Positions 5,468 through 26,674 of a DNA stretch of 29,905 nucleotides are shown piece after piece. A program made the position numbers and the translations under genes. The notes beneath the pieces were generated by a model that was given only the letters and a program-made list of their open reading frames with translations, was not told where the DNA came from and did no database searches. The DNA lies in IMG/VR virus record IMGVR_UViG_3300010885_032517, positions 1 to 29,905 of that record; one strand, 5' to 3'. Each line of letters opens with the position of its first letter. The first letter of the stretch is position 1. The stretch comes from a virus.

Positions 5468-6736
5468 TCAGGCATCTTCATAGTAAGCATGAACACCAAA
5501 TGGTGGCTCAATGGTCTTGTTATACTTGTTATGGATAATCCATACCGTATCACAATAATTTTCATCACCCCAAGAACCGAATGGTTCACCGTCAGTGAAT
5601 ACGATGAAGAGTTTTGGATTTACATCCTCATTCTTCATCCATGTCCAATTGGCATCAAAGTCAGTGCCACCAAAACCTTTTGGTTCATAGTTTACAAGTT
5701 CATCACCATCAGCAGTAGTATATTCTTGTGGGTTATGAACCTGTGTATCAAAGCACCAAATCTTAACTTTGTAGTCATCAAAGGTTTGCATGATGCCATT
5801 GATTTCACCAAAGAAGTTATTCAACTGTTCTTGACCAATAGAACCACTGGTATCAATTGCAATGCAAACATCAATGGCTTGATCCTTACGCATGTTAGGC
5901 AGAACGAAACCTTGTGAGAACATCTTCTTGTTAGGAATAGTCCATGTGTAATCATTCTTGACAGTAGATTGGATTTGCTGTGTAATGAGTTCACGCCAGT
6001 TGATTTTAGGTTGCGTGAGTTCATTGATCATACGTTTGACATTGCCAGGAACATTGCCAGCGCCAGCAGATTGTGCGGCGGCAAGCATAGCTTCCTTAAA
6101 CTCGTCCTTGATCTTCTGGCGTTCTTCTTGTGACAGTGTAGGACGACCTTTGCCTTCTTTGTCGCCATCTTTACCTTCACCATCACCACTGCCCTTGCCA
6201 TCCTTTTCAGGATCAAGATGGTCATCAAGCAACTGGTCAAGCAAATCTTCGATGTTGATTTTCTGTGCGTTCTTGATCAAATCATCATAAACTTGTTCAA
6301 AATTCCAGTCATCATACTTGCGATCATACAACACAGGCACAACCGTAATCTTTTGACCAAGGTTATACTTGATGCAATCAGCATTGACCACATAGTCCAT
6401 TGCAACGTTGGCAATATCTTTCTGTTTACCCATACCACGGTTCATATGGTCATAAGCACAATGAAGCAACTCATGGCAGAACAAGAACATCATTTGGTTG
6501 GTAGGCAGTTTGAGGATAAAGTCACTATTGTAGTAGAAGTGACGACCATCAGTCGCAGCAGTGGTCAGCCAGCTATCGGCATTGACCAATTTAAGACGCA
6601 TGGCAAGATTGCCAAAAAACGGTTGTTTGAGAACCAAGGCAATACGAGCCTTGAGAATTGCTTGACGTGCGTTGTAGTCTACCGTAGCGTCAATAGTTTC
6701 GGACAGCTTGCCCGCACCCTGTTTGATTTTAGCCAT
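5468..6736 (-). CDS. DUF2201-type protein: metallopeptidase-like N-terminus plus VWA domain
   Basis: 422 residues from the ATG at 6736; upstream in-frame codons back to 6778 lie in the promoter, and GGAG stands just before this ATG. The N-terminal part has a zinc-peptidase-like motif HELLH at 88-92, followed by H97. A Lys/Asp/Gly-rich linker spans about 175-200. The C-terminal von Willebrand A domain has a MIDAS motif, D295-T-S297-G-S299. In bacteria such proteins commonly sit beside MoxR-type AAA+ ATPases and are thought to act with them in assembling or activating other proteins. That partner is the gene immediately upstream here. The target is unknown; whether the HELLH site is catalytic cannot be judged by eye. 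Confidence 0.88.
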   Translation of the reverse strand: MAKIKQGAGKLSETIDATVDYNARQAILKARIALVLKQPFFGNLAMRLKLVNADSWLTTAATDGRHFYYNSDFILKLPTNQMMFLFCHELLHCAYDHMNRGMGKQKDIANVAMDYVVNADCIKYNLGQKITVVPVLYDRKYDDWNFEQVYDDLIKNAQKINIEDLLDQLLDDHLDPEKDGKGSGDGEGKDGDKEGKGRPTLSQEERQKIKDEFKEAMLAAAQSAGAGNVPGNVKRMINELTQPKINWRELITQQIQSTVKNDYTWTIPNKKMFSQGFVLPNMRKDQAIDVCIAIDTSGSIGQEQLNNFFGEINGIMQTFDDYKVKIWCFDTQVHNPQEYTTADGDELVNYEPKGFGGTDFDANWTWMKNEDVNPKLFIVFTDGEPFGSWGDENYCDTVWIIHNKYNKTIEPPFGVHAYYEDA

Positions 6737-6760
6737 AATTATTCTCCTATCCATATATAC

Positions 6761-6788
6761 ATAATACCACATAATCATATTATGTCAA
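6761..6788 (-). promoter_or_regulatory. Sigma70-type promoter for the VWA gene
   Basis: TTGACA at 6788-6783, 16-base spacer, TATTAT at 6766-6761. The -10 box ends 24 bases before the ATG at 6736. It follows directly on a terminator T-tract, so the VWA gene can be transcribed independently of the ATPase gene. Confidence 0.75.
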
Positions 6789-6790
6789 GA

Positions 6791-6829
6791 GAAAAAATAG
6801 GGGGGAAGTGTTGCGGCACCACCCCCCTA
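6791..6829 (-). terminator. Terminator hairpin between ATPase and VWA genes
   Basis: On the minus strand TAGGGGGG (6829-6822) pairs with CCCCCCTA (6805-6798), an 8-base stem with a possible inner GTG/CAC pairing, followed by ATTTTTTC. The T-tract merges into the TTGACA box of the next promoter. Confidence 0.75.
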
Positions 6830-6832
6830 ACT

Positions 6833-6859
6833 GTAGGAAAAATCACACATTTTTCCTAC
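6833..6859 (-). repeat. Perfect 11-bp hairpin in the ATPase-VWA spacer
   Basis: Bases 6833-6843 pair perfectly with 6849-6859 around the 5-base loop CACAC. It is the middle of three consecutive hairpins. There is no T-tract, so it is not an intrinsic terminator by itself. It may stabilise the 3' end of the ATPase mRNA or bind a protein (inference). Confidence 0.6.
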
Positions 6860-6863
6860 GTTA

Positions 6864-6900
6864 TCTCGCCCTCACTGTGATGGAGAACGATGGGGCGAGA
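6864..6900 (-). repeat. 8-bp stem-loop just after the ATPase stop codon
   Basis: TCTCGCCC at 6864-6871 pairs with GGGCGAGA at 6893-6900 around a 21-base loop that itself contains TCACTGTGA. It begins one base after the ATPase stop codon and is the first of three hairpins in the transcript. Confidence 0.55.
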
Positions 6901-6901
6901 A

Positions 6902-8029
6902 TTAGTCACGCACCGCCGCAAGAATGAAGTCGCCATTCTTTGCATGGTATTCCTTATAATGTGCCATCTTGCTGGTCTTCATTGGCAACTTGTAGTTACG
7001 GAGAATAGTAGCAAGCATCATAACTTGCAATTCCGTATCCATATTGTCAAGGAAGAAGCGGAACACGTTGTCAAGTTCACCGTGCCAAACAGTATTCTCG
7101 CTGTCTTTCATACGCTCACCACCACGACGATCAAAGCTATCCTTGAGTTCATAGCAGCAAGAAACAGTTAGCGAATACTTTGCACCAATGTCCTTGGCTT
7201 TGAGTTCCTTGACCTTACCAGACAGAATGTCGGAAGGGTTAGGCATTTGGCTTGCTACCTTGCGATGTGCGGCAAACTTAAGTGCAACACCTTCACCAAC
7301 CGTACCAGACACAAGGTCATTCAGTTCCGTATCAGCAAGGTCTTCTTGCAACAGATCGCTAACAAATGACCATGAACGAGGCGTAGCAAACGATGAACCG
7401 CTTTGGCGAGGATCAAAGTTGAACAAATCATTCTTGTTGCAAGTCACGTATGCAACAACGTCAGGGTTAATACCGTGGTTCAATGCCCAATCATTCCACG
7501 ACTCGAAGTCAACACGCAAGTTCAAGTGAACAAAACGGTTGGCAAGTGGCGATGGCATACGATACACGACACCACGGTCAGTGTCACGGTTACCAGCGGC
7601 AACGATAACAACATTATCAGGAAGTTCATACGTGCCAACACGACGATTAAGAACCAACTGATAAGCGGCAGCTTGTGTAGCTGGTGCGGCAGAGTTCATT
7701 TCGTCAAGGAAAAGAACCACAACAGGATACTTGGCAGCTTCTTCTGCTGTAGGCAGATCAGGTGGAGCATTCCACATGGCATTACCAACGGTTGGGTTGT
7801 AGTAAAGAACACCCTTAAGATCGGAAGGGTCCATAAGTGCAAGACGCAAGTCATACAGCTTGCCGCCCATGCTTTCGCAAATATCTGCAACCAGTTCGGA
7901 CTTGCCGATGCCTGGTGCGCCCCACAAGAAGATAGGACGTTTACGCTTCATACATACCATAATTTCACGCTTTGCAGAAGCGAGAGTAACGGTGCGCACT
8001 TCGGAAAGTGCCTCATTCGGTTTAGCCAT
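6902..8029 (-). CDS. MoxR-type AAA+ ATPase
   Basis: 375 residues. Walker A is GAPGIGKSE at 37-45, Walker B is VVVLFLDEMNSA around 103-114, sensor 1 is the N147 region in VIVAAGNRDTD, and the arginine in PLANRFVHL (R165) is the likely finger. MoxR ATPases act as chaperone-like machines with VWA-domain partners, and one is encoded directly downstream. The start codon has GGAG 7 bases upstream and a strong promoter before that. The two genes are visibly more GC-rich than the right-hand part of the window. Cyanophages carry a related AAA+ protein usually called CobS, but the DUF2201 partner argues against a cobaltochelatase here. Confidence 0.9.
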   Translation of the reverse strand: MAKPNEALSEVRTVTLASAKREIMVCMKRKRPIFLWGAPGIGKSELVADICESMGGKLYDLRLALMDPSDLKGVLYYNPTVGNAMWNAPPDLPTAEEAAKYPVVVLFLDEMNSAAPATQAAAYQLVLNRRVGTYELPDNVVIVAAGNRDTDRGVVYRMPSPLANRFVHLNLRVDFESWNDWALNHGINPDVVAYVTCNKNDLFNFDPRQSGSSFATPRSWSFVSDLLQEDLADTELNDLVSGTVGEGVALKFAAHRKVASQMPNPSDILSGKVKELKAKDIGAKYSLTVSCCYELKDSFDRRGGERMKDSENTVWHGELDNVFRFFLDNMDTELQVMMLATILRNYKLPMKTSKMAHYKEYHAKNGDFILAAVRD

Positions 8030-21112: not shown

Positions 21113-22270
21113 TCAATAACTTCTTTCAAGTTCACAAGTTATGCAGTGTAAATTTCCTTCTAAAAACTGTGCATGGGACCATTCCACGTATATCGCCTCA
21201 ATGCCTACATTTTTTAAATCATCATAGAATTTTTTATCATAAAAATTGCATAATGTTTTTGTTGGAGATATAGGAAGACAATTTGCTTCTCTTCGATCCA
21301 AATCAAAAATAGGTTTCCATTTTTCTACCCACAACGTTGGGTTATATTTGTCATTAGTCCAAAATTCAGTTGGTAAGTTTAATCGCCATTCGGCAGTTGG
21401 CAAATATATAATGTTTTTAACATCTTGAAAATAATATTCAATTTTTGGATTATTTTCTAAAAATCTCATAGGATTTATTAATATGGTGTCATTATTTAAA
21501 AATACTGCAGAAGCATCAATATGTCCAGCTTTTGGAATATATATTGGTGTAACATTAAGATAGTTTAACCATTTTTCAAACCATAAATGACCTACAGTTT
21601 TTTTTCCATATGATGCAATATATGCTTTATCATTTCGTTTTAAAACATAAGCGCCGTGAAATAATATTTTATCTGAATATTGAATATTGTGAGTTTTAAA
21701 CCAATCCCATGCAGCATTTTTAGCAAAAAAATTTTCATGTGTTTTTAAAATGTTTTTTACATGTTTATAATTTTTTGGGTAATTTCTAAATCCCGTAAGT
21801 TTAAAAAATTCATTATAATCAACTAATGCTTTTTCATCCATTATTCCACCATCTAAATTTAATTCTGGTGAATTTACTAATAAATTATTGTTTTCAGAAT
21901 TGATAAGGTTTTTGTAGATATCTTCCATCCAAAGATGAGTGAATCTTCTTTCGGGATAGGGAATATAAGAAGAGAAAAATATATTACCATAAGTTATATA
22001 TTGATCACGCATATTCAATGCTGAATCATGAAATATGTTTTCTTCTGAATTGTAATTTTTTGGTTGTTTTGGTCTATGAACCTTTACATTATGTTCTTCG
22101 AGAATTTTTTGTATATTGGTGAGTTCTAAATTACTATCTTCAATAATTTTAACAAAATTTTCTTGGTCTTTTCCTTCATATCTTTTGGGAATTTTATCAT
22201 TTTCAAAGACAGACCCTAAAATCACTGATTTTAGTGGATCAAAATCATTCCAACAATGTAATTTAGTCAT
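21113..22270 (-). CDS. Amidinotransferase-like protein (glycine/inosamine amidinotransferase family)
   Basis: 385 residues, full length for the family, whose members move the amidino group of arginine to an amine. Matches to human AGAT from memory: WNDFDPLKSVILG at the start, NMRDQYITYGN with D89 (AGAT MPRDILIVVGN, D170), HIDASAVF with H250 (AGAT HIDATFN, H303), and GNLHCITCELER with C376 (AGAT GGFHCWTCDVRR, C407). The region equivalent to FDAADF with D254 reads FHGAYV, so one catalytic acid seems missing and the reaction may differ. There is no signal peptide. The gene is very AT-rich and sits among probable head proteins, overlapping the start of the next by one base. Confidence 0.85.
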   Translation of the reverse strand: MTKLHCWNDFDPLKSVILGSVFENDKIPKRYEGKDQENFVKIIEDSNLELTNIQKILEEHNVKVHRPKQPKNYNSEENIFHDSALNMRDQYITYGNIFFSSYIPYPERRFTHLWMEDIYKNLINSENNNLLVNSPELNLDGGIMDEKALVDYNEFFKLTGFRNYPKNYKHVKNILKTHENFFAKNAAWDWFKTHNIQYSDKILFHGAYVLKRNDKAYIASYGKKTVGHLWFEKWLNYLNVTPIYIPKAGHIDASAVFLNNDTILINPMRFLENNPKIEYYFQDVKNIIYLPTAEWRLNLPTEFWTNDKYNPTLWVEKWKPIFDLDRREANCLPISPTKTLCNFYDKKFYDDLKNVGIEAIYVEWSHAQFLEGNLHCITCELERSY

Positions 22271-22623
22271 TATACACTTTTTGGTCTATTTCTGCGAACA
22301 TGCTTTAATTTAGCAGCAAATGCATCTGGCGTCAATTTATATTTTGCAATGAATGCATTATGCAAATCTTTAGGATCAATTTGGAAAGCCATTGATATAC
22401 TGCGCATTAGATCATCTATACTATTATAATCAATTTGTTCAAGATCATCTAATTGGCTTGCAAGACGTGCAACCGCACCAATCATATTCTTGCCTTCTAC
22501 ACCTTTTACAATGGTGTCATACTTCCAACGTGCAGCCATGAGACCACGTGCACCCGCACTTATAGGATTGCGCCCTTGGATTGTAGTACTCATTGCTGCT
22601 TCGAGGATTTCTTTTATTTTCAT
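22270..22623 (-). CDS. Small helical protein with capsid-targeting-like N-terminus
   Basis: 117 residues. The N-terminus MKIKEILEAAMSTTIQGRNP resembles T4 capsid-targeting peptides, with a possible gp21-type cleavage after ILE at residue 8. The remainder is basic and helical, with GARGLMAARWKYDTIVKGVE and a Lys/Arg-rich end KLKHVRRNRPKSV. Such a protein could be packaged into the prohead and bind DNA (inference). It starts one base after the stop of the DctP-like gene and overlaps the amidinotransferase gene by one base. Confidence 0.78.
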   Translation of the reverse strand: MKIKEILEAAMSTTIQGRNPISAGARGLMAARWKYDTIVKGVEGKNMIGAVARLASQLDDLEQIDYNSIDDLMRSISMAFQIDPKDLHNAFIAKYKLTPDAFAAKLKHVRRNRPKSV

Positions 22624-22624
22624 A

Positions 22625-23572
22625 TTAAGCTGCTATAATTTTCTTTAAAACAACGGGTGAAAATATATTTTTAACCAAATCTGATTTATAAATTTCAGAT
22701 GTTAAATCTTTAAATTTTTGTATTTCTGAATCTGATAACTGAAAAAATCCTTCACAGCGATTTTTTGCATCTAATTCAAAATTTTTGCTATCTTCAATAG
22801 TTTCTGTTCTTTCTAACAAAGCTGTTTTTTTAGCAGCATTTTTAAACAGAATCTTATCTTCCTCACTTAGCGTATTCCAAAAAATTTCAGAAATTACAAT
22901 TGTAGTTAAAAATAAACTGTGCTTTGTATTAGTAATAAAAGGAGTCTTTTCTTTTACCTTATCAAAACGCACAAGGGTTGTTTCACCACCATCAAAATCA
23001 ATATCAGGATTATTGTTAAAGTGAGTGGATAAATCATCACCTTCTTTGTCTAATACAGTAATGCCTTCTAGTAAATCATACATTTTTTGGGTTATTGGAC
23101 TTTCGCTTATGCTTAAAATTTTATTTTTAATATCAGTTAATGTCTTGATTGGTTTAGAACTTACCATAATTCTAAATCCACCACTATACGTAAATGCCAA
23201 TCCTCGCATACCAGTATTTTTTCCAAGCAATTCTAGTAAATTTTCACCAATAGAGCCATCTAACACTTTTCTAGCATGTTCATGATCTCTGAAAAGAAAA
23301 GGTAAATCAAACAAATGAAAGTTTTTATATTTTGAACCAATTGCAGTGGTTTGAAATTGACCCATCTGAATTTCGTTCTTTATGATTGCTCTCATAAAAC
23401 CATATTTTTTTATATCAAACTGATTGCAAAATTCTTCTTTGGTTAAAATGTTGATTTTGATTCTATTATCAGATTCAGATTCAATGATTTCTTTAAAAGT
23501 TTTTACAGAACGCAAATAAAGTTCTAGGGGTTCATGTGCAACGACCCAAGTAAGATTAATTTCTTCTGACAT
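22625..23572 (-). CDS. TRAP-transporter DctP-like solute-binding protein without signal peptide
   Basis: 315 residues, the length of mature TRAP solute-binding proteins, which capture organic acids in the periplasm. Family features: FHLFDLPFLFRDHEHARKVL (about 85-104), GMRGLAFTYSGGFRIMVSSK (about 121-140), PIKTLTDIKNKILSI (141-155), and later ISEIFWNTLSEEDKILFKNA. The usual signal peptide is absent: the protein begins MSEEINLTWVVAHEPLEL, directly in the first strand of the fold. No TRAP membrane subunits are nearby. In a phage it may bind a small molecule in the cytoplasm or virion (inference). An AATAAATA box stands 20 bases before the ATG. The gene is AT-rich. Confidence 0.82.
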   Translation of the reverse strand: MSEEINLTWVVAHEPLELYLRSVKTFKEIIESESDNRIKINILTKEEFCNQFDIKKYGFMRAIIKNEIQMGQFQTTAIGSKYKNFHLFDLPFLFRDHEHARKVLDGSIGENLLELLGKNTGMRGLAFTYSGGFRIMVSSKPIKTLTDIKNKILSISESPITQKMYDLLEGITVLDKEGDDLSTHFNNNPDIDFDGGETTLVRFDKVKEKTPFITNTKHSLFLTTIVISEIFWNTLSEEDKILFKNAAKKTALLERTETIEDSKNFELDAKNRCEGFFQLSDSEIQKFKDLTSEIYKSDLVKNIFSPVVLKKIIAA

Positions 23573-23592
23573 GTAAATTCCTTTGTTTAATA

Positions 23593-23600
23593 TATTTATT
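23593..23600 (-). promoter_or_regulatory. T4-late-like promoter box AATAAATA
   Basis: AATAAATA reads toward the 23572 start, ending 20 bases before it. Seven of eight bases match T4 late TATAAATA. AAAGGAAT lies between as ribosome site. Confidence 0.45.
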
Positions 23601-23601
23601 A

Positions 23602-23811
23602 TTAAACTTTGCCGCTAGGGTCCATAATAGGTGGTAGACCTAACTTGTTGGTTTTATTACCAAATTTAGCGGCTTGACGCTGTGTTTCACCTGGTTTTAC
23701 ATCAACTGTCATGCTGTTGGAATAACGTGGGTCACGTGCCATCTTCTTATTACCAGCAACTACACCTACACCACCAGCTTCTACAAGATCAAATAATTCA
23801 GTCAATAACAT
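23602..23811 (-). CDS. Short probable internal head protein with capsid-targeting-like N-terminus
   Basis: 69 residues. MLLTELFDLVEAGG at the start is close to the opening of T4 Alt as I remember it (MELITELFDED), an internal head protein, with a possible cleavage after LVE at residue 11. The rest (AGNKKMARDPRYSNSMTVDV, then PGETQRQAAKFGNK) resembles a short segment found in marine phage proteins, from memory. It follows the 24482 gene after 5 bases. Confidence 0.75.
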   Translation of the reverse strand: MLLTELFDLVEAGGVGVVAGNKKMARDPRYSNSMTVDVKPGETQRQAAKFGNKTNKLGLPPIMDPSGKV

Positions 23812-23816
23812 TCAGT

Positions 23817-24482
23817 TCACCACTTACGGCAAGACCAGTATCTTGCCTTCGTGCGTGGACCTGGATTTGCACAATTGTGTCTTGCACGGAAACTTTTACG
23901 ACGTTTTGGATTACTCTTCTTGATACGCATGTTAGGATCACCAAAGTTGACTTTCTTTACGTTACCAGTCTTTGGGTCTTTAACGAATACTTTAAACTTC
24001 TTTACATCGCCACGCATTGGCTTACCGAGTGGAACCTTACGGCCATGATATTCTGCTTCATAAAGATCATCCATAAAGAAACGAATTTCTTTGTCACCTT
24101 TGTTAAGAACAACATCATCATCGTCTTCTGCAATATCCCAACCCATGTTGCTTAACATTTTTACAGCTTGTGCATGCTTGCCTTCATCACCATGCCACCA
24201 CATCTTTGCCAAACGTTTTAGAGTTTGGTGGTTATCTTGCATGGAAACTACTTCACCTTCTGCAATCTTACGAGCGGGACGACTTTCAATTTCGTTTAAA
24301 CTTTCAAGAACTGCGAATAGTTTCTCATCGCCAAGTATAGTAATACTATCACCACTCATTTCCATGATCTCGGTATCTACTTGTAGAATGTTACCAAACT
24401 CCAAATATACACCATCACCAATACTTGGACGGTCTTCGCTTATTGCGGTAAGTTTTTCAATTAAAGAACGCATATCACTCAT
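23817..24482 (-). CDS. Probable internal head protein with basic Cys-containing C-terminal module
   Basis: 221 residues. The N-terminal MSDMRSLIEKLTAISED has a possible gp21-type site after ISE at residue 16. A central part has HQTLKRLAKMWWHGDEGKHA. The end, LGKPMRGDVKKFKVFVKDPK followed by SNPKRRKSFRARHNC and KARYWSCRKW, is a strongly basic module that I remember as a frequent C-terminus of marine phage proteins. Two cysteines and a histidine in it could bind zinc. I infer a packaged DNA-associated protein. AATAAATA stands 19 bases before the ATG, with CAGGAT as ribosome site. Confidence 0.83.
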   Translation of the reverse strand: MSDMRSLIEKLTAISEDRPSIGDGVYLEFGNILQVDTEIMEMSGDSITILGDEKLFAVLESLNEIESRPARKIAEGEVVSMQDNHQTLKRLAKMWWHGDEGKHAQAVKMLSNMGWDIAEDDDDVVLNKGDKEIRFFMDDLYEAEYHGRKVPLGKPMRGDVKKFKVFVKDPKTGNVKKVNFGDPNMRIKKSNPKRRKSFRARHNCANPGPRTKARYWSCRKW

Positions 24483-24501
24483 GTTATAAATCCTGATATA
24501 T

Positions 24502-24509
24502 TATTTATT
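24502..24509 (-). promoter_or_regulatory. T4-late-like promoter box AATAAATA
   Basis: AATAAATA reads toward the 24482 start with 19 bases between. It overlaps the stop codon of the upstream gene. Confidence 0.45.
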
Positions 24510-25455
24510 TTGCTTTGGTGCTTACACGAATTGGTGCTTTGCCGCTACCACCAGTATCTTTACCACCACGACCTGCGGCATTTTGTGCTTTGCGTTTACG
24601 AGTAACTGCACTTTTCTTTTCCGATGCACTCATACTACGGGCTTTTGCCGCTGGCACACATTTAGCATAACCACTCTTGCTACCGCTGGTGCCGCATGGT
24701 GGATGTTTGCCACCAACTTTTTTGCCAATATTAACCCACTTGTCTTTGAACCACTTGTGTAGATTGCCACTGGCTTCTGGTAGCATTAAATTGCCACAGT
24801 GCATGCAATAATCAACTTGTTCAAGCAACACACTCTCTGTAATTGGATCACACTTGATTTCTGTGCTTTCTAAGGTCATTTCCATAGCGATTTTTTTCTT
24901 ATATACGTATAGTTTGTAACCTGAAGCATCATCGCTAAAAATCTTTTTCTGTTGGACTGGATCAGTTACAGCCTTAAAACCCATCTGCTCAAAGAATTTT
25001 GCTGCCCTATCATATAACTTGATTCTGCTTGGTTCGTTTGATTTTGCACCCATGACAATTACTTCGGTTTTAGGATGTCTTGCAATAAAGTGATTCAAAC
25101 AATAGGCAACGCCATTGAATATTTTAAAAACAGTATCTCTTTCAGTGCCAGTTACAGCATGGGTATCAGGTCTGCTCTGCGTTTTATTTTCAAATGCCAA
25201 TACATAATAATTTTCATTATATTCTTTAAATGTGACTTCAATTTTGGTTTTACTAACGGTGAAATCATAATCAGCACCGTAATTATCTGCATACACATCA
25301 AAATTTTCTGGCGCTTTGTTTACGTCGATAAATTCTTCAATTTCTTCGCTTTCGTTCTTGACACAGTTTGGATATTTCTTTCCAAACATTGTTTTCATAC
25401 CTTCTTTATGATAGCCTTTCCAACATGCCTCGCCAAGAACATCTTCCATCTTCAT
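24505..25455 (-). CDS. Probable internal head protein: CTS-like start, zinc-knuckle-like motif, basic tail
   Basis: 316 residues. The N-terminus MKMEDVLGEACWKGYHKEGM has a possible prohead-protease site after LGE at residue 9, then a module with KGY, GMKTMFGKKYPNC seen in other marine phage proteins. The centre (about 55-200) could be an acetyltransferase-like fold, judged weakly from VYADNYGADYDF and AAKFFEQMGFKAVTD. CMHCGNLMLPE at about 217-227 is a CxxC pair shared with the 26674 gene. The end, HKWFKDKWVNIGKKVGG followed by GYAKCVPAAKARSMSASEKK and RKRKAQ, resembles the DUF5872-type tail as I remember it. It overlaps the upstream stop by ATGA. Confidence 0.82.
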   Translation of the reverse strand: MKMEDVLGEACWKGYHKEGMKTMFGKKYPNCVKNESEEIEEFIDVNKAPENFDVYADNYGADYDFTVSKTKIEVTFKEYNENYYVLAFENKTQSRPDTHAVTGTERDTVFKIFNGVAYCLNHFIARHPKTEVIVMGAKSNEPSRIKLYDRAAKFFEQMGFKAVTDPVQQKKIFSDDASGYKLYVYKKKIAMEMTLESTEIKCDPITESVLLEQVDYCMHCGNLMLPEASGNLHKWFKDKWVNIGKKVGGKHPPCGTSGSKSGYAKCVPAAKARSMSASEKKSAVTRKRKAQNAAGRGGKDTGGSGKAPIRVSTKAK

Positions 25456-25853
25456 GACTTGACTAAATCCTTAATTGCTTTCACATGGTTATCCATGATG
25501 TAACTATGTTCATCATATAAATCCATCATGCTTGCCTTATTCATAATTTGCTCGCCAAGAACTTCTGCCATAGTTGCAAATTCTGGTTCAATGCTGCCAC
25601 GTTGTGTGGCATATTTTTCCAGATAAAAAAGTAAATCTTGCATTTTAGCAGTGCGCTCTGCTATACCCATATCAACATTTTTTTCTTCAATATTTTTGTA
25701 AAGTTTTGTTGCACTTGGACACATATCAAAATGGCGTGTTTGATATTTGCCTACTTTAACTTCGCCACTATCTTTGGTTTCATCTTTTGATTCTTCACCA
25801 AGTATGATAGCATCCATCTTATTGATGAAATATCGTAAATCCATGTCGCTCAT
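25452..25853 (-). CDS. Small helical protein with possible capsid-targeting N-terminus
   Basis: 133 residues. The start MSDMDLRYFINKMDAIILGE has an [I/L]-x-E site (LGE) at residue 20. The rest is helical: YQTRHFDMCPSATKLYKNIE and RTAKMQDLLFYLEKYA, a pattern I remember from unnamed phage proteins opening with HFDICPxA. It has 4-base ATGA overlaps with the genes on both sides and shares MSDM with the 24482 protein. Confidence 0.78.
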   Translation of the reverse strand: MSDMDLRYFINKMDAIILGEESKDETKDSGEVKVGKYQTRHFDMCPSATKLYKNIEEKNVDMGIAERTAKMQDLLFYLEKYATQRGSIEPEFATMAEVLGEQIMNKASMMDLYDEHSYIMDNHVKAIKDLVKS

Positions 25854-26674
25854 TTAGATTTATTTCCCCAATTTTTTGCGCCAGCTTTACGGCATTTTAC
25901 TAGCGCACCGCTTGCATATGCACTAGGCCATACTTTATAACGACTTTTTACTTTATAGTAACAAGCATCTTTCTTTTCATTCATAAGACTTGCTTCATAC
26001 ATCAGTCCACCACAATGAGGGCAACTTTCTTCAACTGCTTCTAATTCATCCGTTGTATCACCAGTAACAGGATATGTTCTGCCACCAACATTAAATGATT
26101 TTTTACCTGCCTTTATAGCATTCATTCTTGCATCAGTGAAAGCATTGGACTCTTCCATGTCATCATGTGCGGCACTGCCAACGATTTCATTGTAATTGTC
26201 CATGCAAAGATAATCATGATGCTTGGATAATTCAATCATCTTTTGAGCAACATCATGCAAGTCTAAATCAGTTTTGGCATCTTCACGAGCATATTCCATC
26301 ATACGAAGCAGTAGCGGAATATCCATACTAACTGTATCAGTCGCATCTGCTTCCATGACACTTTCATCATGCTTTGGCTTTTTACCACGCTTTTTCATAT
26401 TGATAGCAATAGCAGCTTGTTGTGCTGGACTGCTTGCTTCTTGAATTGTTTCTACGCTTTCTTGTGGTAAAACTTTTGGTTTTTTTATAGCACTGCCTGG
26501 TATTAATTTGTCCATTGCAAGTTCAACACCTGCACGTTGCTTTTTAGTTTTTCCAACAGGATTACCCTTCATTAAATTAGGATTACGTGAAAGTCTTTTG
26601 TTAACAAATGACTTAATTGTATTAGTGCGAAGTTCTTCTAAATCTGTTTCAACAATGATATCATTAATACGCAT
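25850..26674 (-). CDS. Probable internal head protein with CTS-like start and conserved basic C-terminus
   Basis: 274 residues from the ATG at 26674; GTG codons upstream overlap the previous gene. MRINDIIVETDLEE has a possible cleavage after IVE at residue 9. Later segments are modular: NAFTDARMNAIKAGKKSFNV followed by GGRTYPVTGDTTDE, the CPHCGGLMYE CxxC motif, and the end DACYYKVKSRYKVWPSAYAS, GALVKCRKAGAKNWGNKSK. From memory the last module is one of the commonest protein C-termini in marine phages and occurs on many different proteins. The function is unknown; DNA binding in the capsid is inferred. Confidence 0.83.
   Translation of the reverse strand: MRINDIIVETDLEELRTNTIKSFVNKRLSRNPNLMKGNPVGKTKKQRAGVELAMDKLIPGSAIKKPKVLPQESVETIQEASSPAQQAAIAINMKKRGKKPKHDESVMEADATDTVSMDIPLLLRMMEYAREDAKTDLDLHDVAQKMIELSKHHDYLCMDNYNEIVGSAAHDDMEESNAFTDARMNAIKAGKKSFNVGGRTYPVTGDTTDELEAVEESCPHCGGLMYEASLMNEKKDACYYKVKSRYKVWPSAYASGALVKCRKAGAKNWGNKSK

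Follow-up and report, generated by a model that had tools for sequence, protein, structure and literature searches.

What does a solute-binding protein of the TRAP family do in a phage, when it carries no export signal and no membrane partner has been found for it among the phage genes? The usual view of TRAP binding proteins is that they are extracytoplasmic transporter components, selective for carboxylates via one near-universal arginine. A phage-encoded DctP protein offers a direct way to ask what transporter parts carried by phages are for. The gene considered here, at 22625–23572 on the minus strand of a 29,905-base virus record (the whole of which is referred to below as the window), encodes a TRAP/DctP-family solute-binding protein of 315 amino acids with no signal peptide, as judged from Pfam, a PDB profile match, AlphaFold (AF2) and VIA. 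The window derives from a T4-like phage belonging to a group of large freshwater phages related to T4; its DNA polymerase is ~46% identical to those of the large phages Phosso and Atu_ph07, and up to 92% identical to those of uncultured kin. Carriage of TRAP- or TTT-type binding proteins by phages as such is already recorded in databases. The uncultured Caudovirales entries A0A6J7WI33, A0A6J7WKL0 and A0A6J5T247, annotated as DctP/TeaA and Bug/TTT, are phage-encoded like the window protein, although the two DctP entries among them are, unlike it, partial (~160 amino acids). A search of the literature for TRAP binding proteins encoded by phages gave nothing relevant.

Family and Fold of the Protein

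A first-pass annotation of the window had placed the protein in the DctP/TRAP solute-binding family, and this assignment is borne out by Pfam PF03480 (DctP; 2.8e-32, 112.6 bits against a cut-off of 23.4), by NCBIfam TRAP_S1 (95.9, over the cut-off of 50) and by PDB entry 4xfe (2.2e-21); the score against TIGR00787 lies below that model's cut-off. The core TRAP motifs quoted in the annotation are likewise present in the reading frame. The protein was modelled twice by AlphaFold, and the second model, built on a 36-sequence alignment, reached a pLDDT of 94.9 and a pTM of 0.92. VIA comparison with about 50 full-length mature TRAP binding proteins gave Z values of 31–35 (about 34), with a span from residue 1–5 to residue 315. 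Because both models match full-length mature TRAP proteins over this span, we take the phage protein to be whole, its two-lobed TRAP fold being complete in the models; a truncated gene was considered and dropped on the same ground. The description of the protein as starting inside the fold is therefore to be corrected, since in alignment it begins at the point where solved TRAP proteins have their mature N-terminus. In common with the TRAP DctP family (PF03480; SiaP, IseP, DctPAm), it has the whole fold, the domain order, the LPFLFRDHEHA motif, Arg134 (IseP Arg156) and the conserved His218, whereas it differs from the family in having no signal peptide and no DctQM found with it, and in carrying Ser154 as the equivalent of Arg147 and Thr198 in place of the ligand asparagine.

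No Export Signal, and No Membrane Partners Found

The lack of an export signal, asserted at first pass, is upheld both by the locus itself and by its phage kin. The stop-to-stop frame amounts to 329 amino acids, and the sole in-frame upstream extension comprises 14 codons (23573–23614, minus strand; RQSLIINILNKGIY) with a stop before them. A signal peptide is impossible for the window protein because just these 14 in-frame codons precede the ATG, and the 14 extra residues of RQSLIINILNKGIY form none, so that an upstream start, by which the protein might have become an ordinary exported one, adds no signal. No twin-arginine motif was found in the window protein, and a signal peptide hidden in another frame was dropped, only ~30 nt lying between the genes. 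In alignment with exported relatives, the first residues fall at the beginning of the mature chain, and the protein therefore resembles an exported protein minus exactly its signal. All relatives in other phages share this trait: no signal peptide occurs in any of the seven homologous copies at the same site, which leave no coding room for one, or in a divergent eighth copy (L089). Relatives with a signal peptide, which the annotation had thought would make the protein an ordinary exported one, do exist, but only among the more distant cellular proteins, and the phage protein itself is unaffected by them. The annotation had also reported no TRAP membrane subunits; none occurs in the window, nor in larger kin records. 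DctM was found in none of 7, and DctQ in none of 9, phage records searched, which range up to 338 kb; most of them are incomplete, and these subunits could come from the host.

Phage Relatives and the Cargo Slot

A single-sequence scan of viral contigs with the window protein gave no relatives, and the relatives described here were located via scanning of DNA polymerase neighbourhoods and an alignment query. Six further homologues lie at the same site (L003, L018, L087, L004, L010 and L005), with one DctP gene per DctP-carrying phage record, and L089 is a divergent homologue in another virus. The window protein shares 43–66% identity with the other phage copies. Its gene is flanked upstream by a 69-aa gene (23602–23811, minus strand) and downstream by a 117-aa gene (22270–22623, minus strand), both conserved in kin and respectively 71–97% and 68–87% identical in near kin; between L005 and the window, the 69-aa gene is 97% identical, as against 43% for DctP. 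The junction is empty in L012, L013, L020 and L026, where the 117-aa gene overlaps the 69-aa gene, and is filled by other genes in L015, L017, L023 and L024, one of which encodes a radical SAM protein and the rest proteins that are SGNH-like by eye, without a Pfam match. DctP thus behaves like a cargo gene, present in some phages and missing from others at one and the same site between conserved genes. Comparison of these sequences indicates that the DctP allele is not tied to the flank genes and that alleles are exchanged in this cargo slot. More radical-SAM-like cargo genes lie near the same region in kin (L005:141–1400, L015:5932–7191 and L087:4400–5638).

The DctP frame is intact in all seven phage copies, and pairwise dN/dS among them is 0.20–0.51, with dS near saturation; these values point to purifying selection. 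Two kinds of match were put aside. Tblastn matches in the phage collection, at 20–30% identity, fell in short contigs lacking annotation and in a Salmonella assembly; they most likely represent bacterial DNA and were left out. A match labelled Gammaproteobacteria (L090) has the same DctP sequence as phage contig L004 and so probably reflects the binning of a phage contig into a MAG.

Promoter-Like Box and Ribosome Site

The late-type box noted at first pass is not the exact T4 sequence TATAAATA, which occurs once in the window against 3.4 times by chance and is hence not enriched; what stands is the variant AATAAATA (23593–23600, minus strand), 28 nt 5′ of the start codon, at a position kept across the phage copies. 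A box of the form [ACT]ATAAATA, which we take to be a T4 late-promoter form, lies at −25 to −38 upstream of the start in 7/7 phage copies, and 0 of 2000 shuffles exceed 4/7. The window's three such boxes all stand 26–28 nt before ORF starts. The support holds for the degenerate, position-specific form only, not for exact TATAAATA, and late expression of the gene is plausible. A Shine–Dalgarno-like AAAGGA (23579–23584, minus strand) lies just 5′ of the ATG, with similar sequences in most other phage copies.

A Changed Binding Pocket

Pocket positions were derived from alignment to published structures, not from coordinates. High-affinity binding of carboxylates by SiaP is conferred by Arg147, a residue that 96.8% of 6142 family members possess (PMC4646407); the numbering of IseP Arg156 and of the ligand Asn217 is that of PMC11668362. 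In the window protein, the place of this near-universal carboxylate-binding arginine is occupied by Ser154 (codon at 23111–23113, minus strand), and all phage copies have Ser or Thr there, so that the conserved arginine which the annotation had proposed to look for is absent. Because of this replacement, the ligand is probably not a carboxylate bound in the classical manner. The arginine is kept in the bacterial signal-less copies, and is lost in a few exported relatives too. The place of the QENP ligand asparagine (IseP Asn217) is taken by Thr198 within GGETT (22979–22981, minus strand), a change (Thr/Ser) common to the wider subfamily. The second TRAP arginine, SiaP Arg127 and IseP Arg156, is represented by Arg134 (23171–23173, minus strand), which is invariant across the phage copies. 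Also invariant among them are the cleft motifs WVVxHEP, AFTYSGGFR, ETTxVR and HS; invariant positions make up 20/36 of the cleft as against 55/279 of the rest, for a cleft set chosen with knowledge of the motifs. On this evidence, the pocket seems to have been rebuilt, not lost.

Cellular Relatives and Origin

Among cellular proteins, the closest relatives are orphan DctP proteins from Bdellovibrionota, most of which have signal peptides. The exported ones resemble the phage copies in the motifs FTYSGG(F/Y)R, E(T/S)T..R and HSLFLT, and differ from them in their signal peptides and in that many keep the Arg147 equivalent. Five bacterial copies, from Bdellovibrionota and Gammaproteobacteria MAGs, are signal-less (L143, L150, L161, L092 and L152, the last for an internal start chosen by alignment). 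In the tree, these and the phage copies form one clade (99/99) nested inside the exported Bdellovibrionota family, and the phage copies group together (95/93). As the signal-less clade sits inside an exported family, the tree as rooted is most simply explained by one loss of the signal. The signal-less chromosomal proteins are like the phage proteins in clade and in their lack of a signal, and unlike them in having Arg at the 147 position; moreover, three follow MFS and oxygenase-like genes, the order in L143, L150 and L161 (three genomes, two phyla) being MFS transporter, 200-aa protein, DctP. The 200-aa protein matched no Pfam or PDB entry and has a conserved HxD...H...R pattern. Such a pattern is typical of 2-oxoglutarate oxygenases, and we infer that the protein is oxygenase-like. 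The exported orphan DctP genes of L149, L093 and L153 have genes for an AMP-ligase, an MBOAT protein and an NMT1-type ABC transporter in their vicinity, and that of L151 has MBOAT and ABC neighbours. DctM is absent altogether from three genomes of this kind, and some bacteria with DctP relatives do have DctM genes.

Neighbouring Enzymes and Other Transporter Genes

A second cargo gene in the window (21113–22270, minus strand) encodes an amidinotransferase-like protein, with profile matches to glycine amidinotransferase (2jdx, 2.7e-6), SxtG and StrB and a C-terminal LHCITC motif. It comes after DctP in the window, L003 and L004 only, that is, in 3/7 DctP phages versus 0/8 DctP-free kin; the link is suggestive, the counts being too few for significance. 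Elsewhere in its genome, the phage carrying L003 encodes four further proteins that a second phage also has: a TctA permease (PF01970, 2.2e-62), a TctC-like binder with its own signal peptide, a protein bearing a PP-loop-like motif, and a homologue of the 200-aa oxygenase-like protein of the bacteria. The assignments as TctC-like, as PP-loop and as signal peptide were made by eye, with no Pfam match. The oxygenase-like homologue occurs in only one examined DctP-carrying phage, far from the DctP gene. The absent DctP signal is the more telling because, where a transporter calls for an export signal, the L003 phage appears to supply one. The tripartite-tricarboxylate-type (TctA/TctC) cassettes, at L167:6556–10384 (338-kb and 117-kb records) and L173:3887–7709, lie between T4 core genes in two independent phages.

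A Probable Binding Protein of the Infected Cell

The best reading, to which we give slightly better than even confidence, is that the protein is a late-expressed cytoplasmic small-molecule-binding cargo (moron or auxiliary) protein and not a transporter part. From sequence comparison, the phage protein still looks functional although its export tag and most conserved binding residue are lost, and for that reason its probable task is to bind a small molecule within the infected cell, not to feed a transporter. The ancestor would have been an exported binding protein of the Bdellovibrionota kind, in a clade of which the signal peptide may have been lost once; the phage branch would then have rebuilt the pocket by changing Arg147 to Ser/Thr, the change of the asparagine to Thr/Ser, common to the wider subfamily, being older. 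With a late-type promoter of its own, the gene would yield a complete two-lobed TRAP-type binder that stays in the cytoplasm and closes in Venus-flytrap fashion on a small metabolite, which it may carry, buffer or withhold, presumably to the benefit of the phage. It might thereby serve a small-molecule-modifying enzyme, such as the amidinotransferase-like neighbour in three phages, and the oxygenase-like and transporter genes beside the signal-less bacterial copies suggest further possible enzyme partners by parallel. Against this reading, genes that serve metabolism during infection are not usually expressed late. More tentatively, the phages and their donor bacteria may both use a TRAP binder with a rebuilt pocket as an intracellular receptor for a metabolite or signal, late in infection in the phage case; our literature searches found no description of such a role for the TRAP binding family. 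The idea, raised at first pass, of a reused transporter part thus survives in its intracellular form, the best-supported reading, with the signal missing in phage kin and apparently lost once, while the carboxylate arginine is absent and the virion option is unsupported. If the reading is right, a TRAP fold has been recruited for intracellular binding, with the signal lost once, the arginine lost in the phages, and selection persisting.

Alternative Explanations

It is unlikely that the protein, made late, is packaged in the head and injected to bind a metabolite in the next host, as the annotation had in part proposed. The late-type box would suit such a protein, as would its surroundings: five nearby genes start with [LI]xE plus a small or charged residue (background 5%), which we take as a likeness to T4 capsid-targeted proteins, and among the flank genes these include the 69-aa gene (MLLTELFDLVEAGG) and the 117-aa gene (MKIKEILEAA). 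A gene run with N-termini of this kind, ending in [LI]xE, extends over 22270–26674. The placement of DctP among head genes accordingly finds support in its flanks, but only indirectly. T4-type internal head proteins have a cleavable capsid-targeting N-terminus, whereas the window DctP and its amidinotransferase-like neighbour have none, and because DctP lacks what its neighbours possess, entry into virions is left without support. The other slot cargo (SGNH-like, radical SAM) has no such N-termini either, by eye, and since signal-less relatives exist in bacteria, the signal-less trait is not an adaptation to phage packaging.

Rather unlikely is an anti-defence or anti-signalling sponge, whose rebuilt pocket would sequester a host signal molecule. 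A ligand-binding fold with a changed pocket and no export signal, in a slot where alleles are exchanged fast while the flanks stay conserved, would fit this role; yet PADLOC models of known kinds of defence protein gave no match to the window DctP, the box is of late and not early type, and the chromosomal signal-less relatives look metabolic.

Export by another secretion path, or release at lysis, followed by work with host TRAP permeases, seems quite improbable. The structure is close to those of transport-competent proteins and DctM genes occur in some bacteria with relatives, but there is neither a signal peptide, upstream coding room nor a twin-arginine motif, the essential arginine is lost, lysis release would be of no help to uptake, and the TctC-like binder of the L003 phage does carry an export signal.

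We also think it very doubtful that the protein is an enzyme in which cleft residues (e.g., His13, Glu14, Glu197, His218) act on the small molecule of the neighbours. Invariant polar residues do line the cleft, and the neighbours are small-molecule-modifying enzymes; several of these residues (e.g., His218), however, are common in ordinary TRAP proteins too. To our knowledge, no catalytic TRAP-fold protein has been described. A decaying relic or recently captured functionless fragment, which the lost signal peptide, the two lost canonical ligand residues and an AT-rich patch might suggest, is disfavoured as highly improbable by dN/dS of 0.20–0.51 over seven diverged copies with all frames intact, by the conserved promoter-like box and ribosome site, and by a confident complete structure model.

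Other Gene Pairs in the Window

Two further gene pairs were observed in the window: an NAD-dependent sugar epimerase gene adjoins one for a DegT-type aminotransferase (840–2812), and a gene for a VWA/metallopeptidase-like protein (DUF2201) adjoins that of a MoxR-like AAA ATPase (5468–8029).
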